Shown one piece after another: positions 1 through 50,158 of a stretch of DNA of 50,158 bases. Every line of letters starts with the position of its first letter. Within the stretch, counting starts at the first letter, position 1. Source of the stretch: Candidatus Atopostipes pullistercoris (lineage in GTDB: Bacteria > Bacillota > Bacilli > Lactobacillales > Carnobacteriaceae_A); the NCBI GenBank assembly GCA_019116785.1, contig DXAZ01000086.1:1-50158 (forward strand), given 5' to 3'. A program made the translations under genes and the position numbers. Under the pieces are notes generated by a model that saw nothing but the letters and a program-made list of their open reading frames with translations, was not told where the DNA came from and made no database searches.

Positions 1-84
1 GAATTAGGAGAGTGCTAAGTCAAAAAATGACCAAGTATTCTAATGGACCAATGACTTATTACAAAAACTGATTTTCTTAAAAGA

Positions 85-550
85 TTACCCTTACAAGTCG
101 GGCCTATTTTTACACTCACTTGTGAGGATAGTGCTGTTACCCTTACAAGTCGGACCTATTTTTAGGCTCACTTGTGAGGATAGTGCTGTTACCCTTACAA
201 GTTGGACTCATTTTTGTGCTCACTTGTGAGGATAAAGCTGTTATCCTTACAAGTCGGACCTATTTTTAGGCTCACTTGTGAGGATAGGGCTGTTACCCTT
301 ACAAGTCGGACCTATTTTTAGGCTCACTTGTGAGGATAGAGCCGGTACCCTAAGGAGTTGGTGTTATTTTTTCGCGCACTTCAAGTGATAAGCCCATTAT
401 CTCCCGGAGTTGGTGTTATTTTTTTCACTCACTTCGGATGATAAGCCTATTATCTCCAGAAGTCAGGTCTTTTTTTCGCGAACTTGAGTAGATTCATCCA
501 TAATCTGTCAAAGTGCAGCTTATTTTACACTTACTTAGAAAGATTCAATC
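85..550. repeat. Tandem array, about 52-bp period, 9 recognisable units, each containing an inverted repeat
   Basis: Unit starts (TTACCC/TTATCC/TTATCTCC) at about 85, 137, 189, 241, 293, 345, 398, 450 and 501. Units 1-5 are near identical (CCTTACAAGT...ACTTGTGAGG); later units diverge in sequence. Confidence 0.93.
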
Positions 551-566
551 GATATTTTTCAAAAAT

Positions 567-627: not shown

Positions 628-2526
628 TTAATTTTCAACAGTTTCGTAAGATCCTTGTTCCACATACACGCTTAAGATCGCGATATCAGAAGGGGTAACT
701 CCACTAATACGGCTTGCTTGTGCAATGGTTTCAGGTTGAATTTTCGTTAAGCGGTCAACAGCTTCTGTAGCAAGGCTACCCACCAACTTGTAATCAATAT
801 TTGCTGGGATTTTTTTATTTTCCATACGTTTAACTTTATCTACTTTACGTTGAGCTTTGTTAATATACCCTTCATATTTGATATGAATTTCAACTTGTTC
901 TTTAACAGCTTTAGAGACTTCTTTTTCTGGTGGATAAATCGCAGCTACATCATCATAAGAAACATATGGACGACGCATGAAATCGTATGCTAATATGCCA
1001 TCTTTTAATTGAGGTTCTTCTTTTTCTTCCAAATACTCAACCACTTGGCTTGGTTTAATTCGAACAGTTTTTAGACGAGCTAATTCAGCTTCTGTTTGTT
1101 CTCTTTTTTCTGTGAAAGCAGCATAGCGTTCTTCAGAAATTAAACCAAAGTCATACCCATAATCAGTTAAACGGAAATCAGCATTATCATGACGTAATAA
1201 CAAACGATATTCAGCACGAGAAGTCAATAAGCGGTAAGGTTCTGCTGTTCCTTTAGTTACCAAGTCATCAATCATCACACCAATATAACTTTCATTACGT
1301 TTCATAATAAACGGTTCTTTACCTTGGTTTCTCAAAGCTGCATTAATTCCAGCAATCAATCCTTGGCCAGCTGCTTCTTCGTAACCGGATGTTCCATTCG
1401 TTTGACCCGCTGTGAAAAGTCCCTCGACCATTTTCGTTTCAAGACTTGGTCGCAATTGATGAGGTAAAATGACATCATATTCTATAGCATACCCAGTACG
1501 CATCATTTGGGCATTTTCTAACCCTTTTACAGATCGTAGCATATCGACTTGTACATCTTCAGGAAGTGAAGTATTTAAACCTTGAACGTAAATCTCATCG
1601 GTATCGGCACTTTCTGGTTCTAAGAAAATTTGATGGCGATTTTTATCAGCGAAACGCACAACTTTATCTTCAATCGATGGGCAATAGCGAGCGCCTACTC
1701 CATCAATAATCCCTGTAAACATTGGTGCACGATCAATATTACTTAAGATTGTTTCGTGTGTTCCTTCGTTTGTATAGGTTAACCAGCATGAATATTGATC
1801 TTCAATTGGCATATAATCTTCATCTTTTGATTCATAGCTAAAATGATGTGGTTCCGCGTCACCTGGTTGTTCTTCAGTATAAGAATAATCAATAGAATCT
1901 TTATGGATTCTTGGAGGTGTCCCTGTTTTAAAACGGCTCAATTCAAAACCGTGTTCTTCTAAATTTTCTTGGAGTTTAATAGAAGGTAACGTATTTTCTG
2001 GACCAGATGAATATTTTAATTCTCCAATAATTATTTGTCCACGAGCTGAAGTTCCTGTGGTTAAAACAACAGATTTTGCTCGGTAAATGGCTCCAGTGTT
2101 AGAAACGACTCCTTCAATTTTATTCTCTTCAATAATTAGTTCTTCAATAATTCCTTGTTTAATATCTAGATTTTTAGTATGTTCTAGTGTCTTTTTCATT
2201 TCCAAAGAGTATAAGTGTTTATCGGCTTGTGCCCGCAACGCACGAACAGCAGGACCTTTTGCGGTATTTAGTAGACGCATTTGGATATAGGTTTTATCAA
2301 TATTTCGACCCATTTCTCCACCAAGGGCATCAATTTCTCGGACAACAATTCCTTTTGCCGGTCCTCCGATAGAAGGATTGCAAGGCATAAAAGCAATTTT
2401 ATCTAAACTAATTGTAACCAACAAAGTTTTTTGTCCCATACGTGCTGCTGCCAATGCCGCTTCAACTCCAGCGTGTCCACCACCTACAACGACTACATCA
2501 TAATTTCCAGCTTCATATTTTTGCAT
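628..2526 (-). CDS. mnmG: tRNA uridine-5-carboxymethylaminomethyl(34) synthesis enzyme MnmG (GidA)
   Basis: N-terminal [22 protein letters not shown]; full-length GidA-like sequence; SD GGAGG upstream. Confidence 0.98.
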
Positions 2527-49672: not shown

Positions 49673-50050
49673 TATGCGCAGGAGGCTCCATCGCTCGGAA
49701 ATTGTGGTATTTCACGCGCTGGAGTCGTCCATCGCTCAGGAATCGCGGAATCCCACGCGCTGGAGCCGTCCAGCCCCCAGAAAATGTAGAATCTCACGCG
49801 CTGGAGTCGTCCACCGCTCAGGAATCGCAGAATCCCACGCACGGGAGTAGTCTAGCTCCCAGAAAATGTAGAATTTCACGCGCGGAAACGGTCCATCGCT
49901 CAGGAATTGTGGTATTTCACGCGCAGGAGTAGTCCATCGCTCAGGAATCGCAGAATCCCACGCGCAGGAGTAGTCCATCGCTCAGGAATCGCAGGATCCC
50001 ACGCGCAGGAGTGATCCACCGCCCAAGAATCGCAGAATTCCACGCGCGGG
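49673..50050. repeat. GC-rich tandem array, 41-bp period, about 9 units
   Basis: CACGCG-anchored units at 49713, 49754, 49795, 49836, 49877, 49918, 49959, 50000 and 50041 (exact 41-bp spacing), plus a degenerate upstream unit. Confidence 0.95.
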
Positions 50051-50158
50051 AGATATTTTTTTATTTAAAATTTGATCATACAATAGAAAGTACTGAATTT
50101 ATTCAGATTACTTTCTCTCTTCGTAGATAATTTTTGATTCTCTATAATAACTCCTGTA

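Follow-up and report, generated by a model that had tools for sequence, protein, structure and literature searches.

Tandem repeat arrays of fixed spacing adjoin NERD-domain nuclease genes that carry a predicted late-competence promoter in Carnobacteriaceae

In REP/REPIN elements with their RAYT enzymes (REPtron), an enzyme gene lies beside inverted-repeat units of which more copies are dispersed in the genome, as is the case at the locus described here; the enzyme there is, however, a Y1/HUH transposase, while here it is a PD-(D/E)XK NERD protein with a predicted winged helix, and the units here are in tandem, with a helix-phased period and a sequence which changes from locus to locus. No Y1 (HUH) tyrosine transposase adjoins the array in the window, where the neighbouring gene is predicted to encode a NERD domain, a zinc ribbon and a winged helix. 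Iteron and parS-type arrays likewise have helix-phased sites in tandem next to the gene for the protein presumed to bind them, whereas the arrays considered here are chromosomal, multicopy and associated with a nuclease, with no replication or partition gene. In type III toxin-antitoxin systems (ToxIN) a nuclease gene adjoins a short tandem array; ToxI lies upstream of its gene, acts as RNA and has repeats of 34-39 nt, whereas here the array is mostly downstream, is sometimes solo and has a period tied to the helix. Integron attC arrays are similarly made up of imperfect hairpins possibly active as single strands, but here there is neither an integrase nor cassettes between the units.

NERD proteins are largely unstudied. 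SmdA of Staphylococcus aureus, which shares the NERD domain (PF08378), is a membrane cell-division factor lacking a number of the residues that are most conserved in NERD, and its authors describe their study as the first to give evidence that the domain has a function in bacteria (PMC9040797). An array or a competence link is unreported for SmdA. In the open-access papers searched, no report connecting NERD with arrays or with competence was found; the protein belongs to the NERD family, but its combination of domains with an array and a competence promoter appears to be undescribed. To our knowledge NERD nucleases with arrays lie outside the known late-competence gene set, and a predicted promoter is what they have in common with the Lactobacillales late-competence regulon (comG, comE, comF, coiA, dprA, ssb).

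The window analysed is a stretch of 50,158 nucleotides from Candidatus Atopostipes pullistercoris and is one entire contig of the assembly. Its relevant features are:

1-71, forward strand: 3'-terminal part (about the last 22 codons, stop codon TGA at 69-71) of a type-A NERD nuclease gene truncated at the contig edge.
85-344, forward strand: array units 1-5 of 52 bp each (85-136, 137-188, 189-240, 241-292 and 293-344), from TRF, folding and unit extraction.
345-552, forward strand: array units 6-9, diverged and in register (345-397, 398-450, 451-501 and 502-552), from TRF and autocorrelation at lag 51-53.
570-605, strand not given: inverted repeat GAGTCAACTTTTCAGTTAACTC, likely the mnmG terminator, read from the sequence.
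628-2526, reverse strand: mnmG, from the ORF call.
49676-50052, no strand assigned: 41-bp tandem array of about 9 copies, matching the type found with type-B NERD genes, from TRF and from lags of 41 and 82.

The array at 85-552 was found to comprise nine units of 51-53 bp, five near-identical and four diverged, at the meeting point of the convergent NERD gene and mnmG. TRF returned two stretches, one of 52-bp repeats at 85-351 (5.1 copies, score 429) and one of 53-bp repeats at 353-485 (2.6 copies). The diverged units 6-9 had a best lag of 51 with 46% identity (0 of 1000 shuffles equally good); the array described in the earlier note is real and holds its spacing of about 52 bp despite divergence. 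The suspicion that its left limit might lie outside the window was refuted, as unit 1 begins at 85, only 14 bp past the stop codon of the NERD fragment.

The NERD fragment shares 100% identity with the C-terminus of a further NERD copy at the end of another contig of the source genome (G000:C162:1-132), and the 44-aa C-terminus from C162 was 86-93% identical to full genes of the sister species A. suicloacalis (G003:C27, C29). The equivalent locus in A. suicloacalis, between anmK and mnmG, was found to contain a full NERD gene of 302 aa, and a second full copy lies beside cspA; at both loci about five 52-bp units begin 13 bp past the gene. The occurrence of the array in the window is accounted for by this neighbouring nuclease gene, most of which lies beyond the contig edge.

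Linkage was assessed in 80 relatives from named genomes, nearly all of Carnobacteriaceae and Bacillaceae, together with the NERD genes of 23 family genomes. At most loci an array adjoined the gene; over the 80 loci, 57 TRF arrays lay within 300 bp of the NERD gene and 21 elsewhere in the surrounding +/-5 kb. Spacing was tested by autocorrelation, which is usable without strong repeats. The best flank lag was 51-53 bp for 94 of 104 type-A genes compared to 30 of 354 control window pairs (Fisher, P =1.4e-58), the control pairs being drawn from the same loci as the genes and homologous loci being partly non-independent; about 10% of type-A genes were without this lag. Type-B proteins form a separate subgroup of about 320-385 aa, and a lag of 40-42 bp was found for 11 of 15 of their genes (P =3e-9), while a strong array was found at none of 12 genes with the NERD domain alone. 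The array sequence followed protein relatedness (Mantel, P =0.002) and was near random below about 60% protein identity, yet the period survived where similarity in array sequence was gone. The spacings of 51-53 and 40-42 bp amount to about five and four helical turns, and a lasting period, close to 4 or 5 times 10.4 bp and dependent on the protein subfamily, favours phased binding sites on duplex DNA. A period set by the protein subfamily at four or five helical turns is also a simple, testable regularity.

These association tests contradict an origin by neutral tandem slippage in intergenic DNA in which template switching (quasi-palindrome correction) preserves the stem. Unit number does vary between the two Atopostipes species (1 versus 5 beside cspA, and more at sprT in A. 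suicloacalis), as slippage would have it, but slippage accounts neither for a location beside one protein family nor for a period which outlasts the sequence and is set by the protein subfamily. We regard it as extremely improbable as an explanation of the arrays; it may be a source of new units. The longest array seen, of about 31 units and 1.6 kb, was in Neobacillus muris, right after the NERD gene. Less than 9 kb of Pisciglobus halotolerans DNA contains two type-A NERD genes together with three 52-bp arrays, which suggests that the module was duplicated locally.

Units 1-5 contain the inverted half-sites TTAyCCTTACAAGT and ACTTGTGAGGATAr with a T-rich centre between them. The earlier note had read the array as a series of hairpins whose stem persists through compensatory change. 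The pairings it quoted in diverged units are as described (398-411 with 431-444, 12 of 14 paired with one wobble; 502-514 with 533-545, 11 of 13 paired). As single-stranded DNA, units 3, 5 and 7 folded better than shuffles (z -2.4 to -3.5) and unit 1 had a weak edge (z -1.4), while units 6, 8 and 9 did not fold above shuffles (z +0.6, +1.1 and -0.5); persistence of the stem was thus borne out in part, and since three of the seven units folded were no better than shuffles, the stem is not always kept along the array. Compensatory change was weakly supported. Among 56 distinct Atopostipes arm pairs, the two arms of a unit paired at 5.96 of 8 positions, slightly better than the 5.61 for arms taken from separate units within one array (permutation P =0.0025; Wilcoxon P =0.01). 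The excess lay mostly at the 1-2 base pairs beside the AGT/ACT core, chiefly as one compensated pair. In 44 arrays near related NERD genes same-unit arms paired no better than sister-unit arms (P =0.53). Inverted symmetry was significant in 18 of these 44 arrays (about 2 expected). What is common to all arrays is the spacing and not the stem. A dimer binding symmetric half-sites would explain most of these observations.

These data bear on the alternative that the units fold in single-stranded DNA or RNA and that the NERD enzyme acts on the hairpins in the manner of REP-associated transposases or integron integrases. Competent cells take DNA in as single strands, several Atopostipes units fold well and the weak same-unit covariation points in the same direction. 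However, the covariation is absent in the 44 other arrays, several arrays and several units of the window array have no stable stem, and the lock on a spacing of 51-53 or 40-42 bp is left unaccounted for, so we consider a hairpin substrate unlikely. A structured RNA of a known family was rejected as the arrays had no Rfam match: the window gave none at the gathering score, and among 13 related loci no repeat or array family was found, the T-box and SAM riboswitches detected lying elsewhere. The broader proposal of the earlier note, namely an undescribed, maintained and repeated feature which is possibly protein-bound, was upheld.

The A. suicloacalis protein of the window locus matched Pfam NERD (PF08378) at 5e-17 (62.8 bits against a cut-off of 22.1). 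Across 75 aligned relatives, D74, E87 and K89 were invariant and the CxxC...CxxC zinc cysteines were conserved, the predicted PD-(D/E)XK active-site residues being intact in the 75 aligned proteins. An AlphaFold model (pLDDT 95) comprised a nuclease core, a zinc ribbon and a C-terminal helix-helix-helix-wing, the last of which is winged-helix-like, a name read off the secondary structure of the model. Foldseek matches were to the R2 endonuclease, Can2/Card1 and BspD6I, all PD-(D/E)XK folds, as partial alignments with modest TM-scores. It is strongly suggested that the protein is a nuclease carrying a DNA-binding domain. In some Bacillaceae type-A NERD genes (G384), D replaces the conserved E of the nuclease motif. 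A known anti-phage defence system was considered and rejected, PADLOC matches (PglW, MkoA and others) being weak and confined to the NERD domain.

Related arrays were found at 13 places in the source genome, the window array included, and at 13 places in A. suicloacalis. Most arrays which could be matched between the two species sit at the same places, and movement is therefore slow. The source-genome arrays at pepV and ssb are absent from the syntenic A. suicloacalis sites. At pepV the array is flanked on both sides by a sequence of about 15 bp of which the empty site holds one copy (TATTGTAAAATAGGC and TATTGTAAATAAGGC against TATTGTAAAATAAAC at the empty site); this repeat, the lone such case among the presence/absence sites, may be a target duplication. 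The two pepV flanks lie on separate contigs, and their adjacency is therefore deduced. A search of plasmids, phages and viral contigs, for which a single type-A protein and the alignment of type-A proteins served as queries, yielded no copies, and a plasmid- or phage-borne mobile element was rejected on this basis.

Solo arrays with no gene outnumber gene-linked ones, and a decayed NERD pseudogene with stop codons was found upstream of the pyrF array in the source genome. We also considered that the array might titrate the nuclease, either as a decoy keeping it harmless until competence, a form of autoregulation, or as part of an addiction-like module. The position of the arrays would suit such a role, as they adjoin the gene, mostly downstream of it (median 66 bp; the stronger array signal was downstream in 72 of 104 type-A genes), and lie clear of the promoter; there are also more arrays than genes in the source genome. 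Solo arrays are nonetheless kept where there is no gene, for which a pure antidote would have no need, and titration seems to us an unlikely account.

The promoter of ssb, noticed during the empty-site comparison in A. suicloacalis, recurs upstream of type-B NERD genes. A search of the whole A. suicloacalis genome (2.1 Mb) for the promoter TTTNTGCAAATTATATATATAG, allowing up to 3 mismatches, gave 8 sites, and the reversed control gave 0; six of the eight precede comGA, comEA, comFA, coiA, dprA and ssb, and the other two precede type-B NERD genes (com gene names were assigned by reading translations). A close variant, AAAATAGCGTTTTTTTGCAAATATTAATAATAGGAG, which was missed by the 3-mismatch search, precedes the type-A NERD genes at both Atopostipes loci. 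In Alkalibacterium, regions upstream of type-A NERD genes had a median score of 7.2 on a matrix derived from nine comGA promoters, compared to -13.9 for 374 other genes (P =1.3e-19). NERD genes in Carnobacteriaceae therefore share a predicted late-competence promoter and are apparently turned on together with the DNA-uptake genes. In Bacillaceae the NERD promoter differs and no competence link was found. A candidate ComK box, AAAAN5TTTT with one mismatch, was in only mild excess there (57% versus 33%). An upstream box, GTTAACAAAAWRTTCAC, is common to some Bacillaceae type-A NERD genes (G384) and did not lead to com genes in the one genome searched. The source genome contains a comGA match with one in-frame TAA (contig C24), which reflects genuine pseudogene status or else a mistake in the assembly.

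The promoter also bears on a role in chromosome organisation, in which centromere-like or domain-marking arrays would be bound by the NERD protein and any nuclease role would be secondary. The phased multi-site arrays found at numerous conserved intergenic locations of the two species are in keeping with this, but a competence promoter, invariant nuclease residues and the presence or absence of arrays between sister species are not, and such a role is very unlikely.

The reading we favour, and hold to be probable, is a two-part module consisting of a NERD nuclease gene and a helix-phased array, the nuclease being induced in competence and binding its own array. On duplex DNA the winged helix would bind the inverted half-sites found in every unit, and many molecules could load onto one face of the array, holding the nuclease at its own locus. 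With its predicted switch-on alongside the late-competence genes of Carnobacteriaceae, the nuclease would act, presumably by cleavage, during the uptake and recombination of foreign DNA. Persistence or spread of the module in transformation would be the most likely benefit, and solo arrays would be relics left after gene loss. Its extension to a new class of selfish or self-recognition system in natural transformation, in which competence-induced nucleases read phased arrays at their own loci, so that DNA exchanged during competence acquires the module or is prevented from removing it, is more tentative and is put forward as a possibility. On the module reading, one NERD subgroup gains a probable substrate, its own array, and a probable time of action, competence; if true, a nuclease component joins the competence regulon, and transformation may be exploited by a new mode of selfish DNA.

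Both kinds of array are present in the window, the 52-bp kind on the left and the 41-bp kind at 49676-50052. The latter adjoins a carbonic-anhydrase-like gene, and no NERD gene lies next to it on the window contig. In A. suicloacalis a type-B NERD gene was found between two 40-bp arrays which differ from each other and have about 15 copies apiece (contig C46), and a GCGC-rich array resembling the 40-41-bp kind, partly masked as N, lies just upstream of comFA (contig C14).
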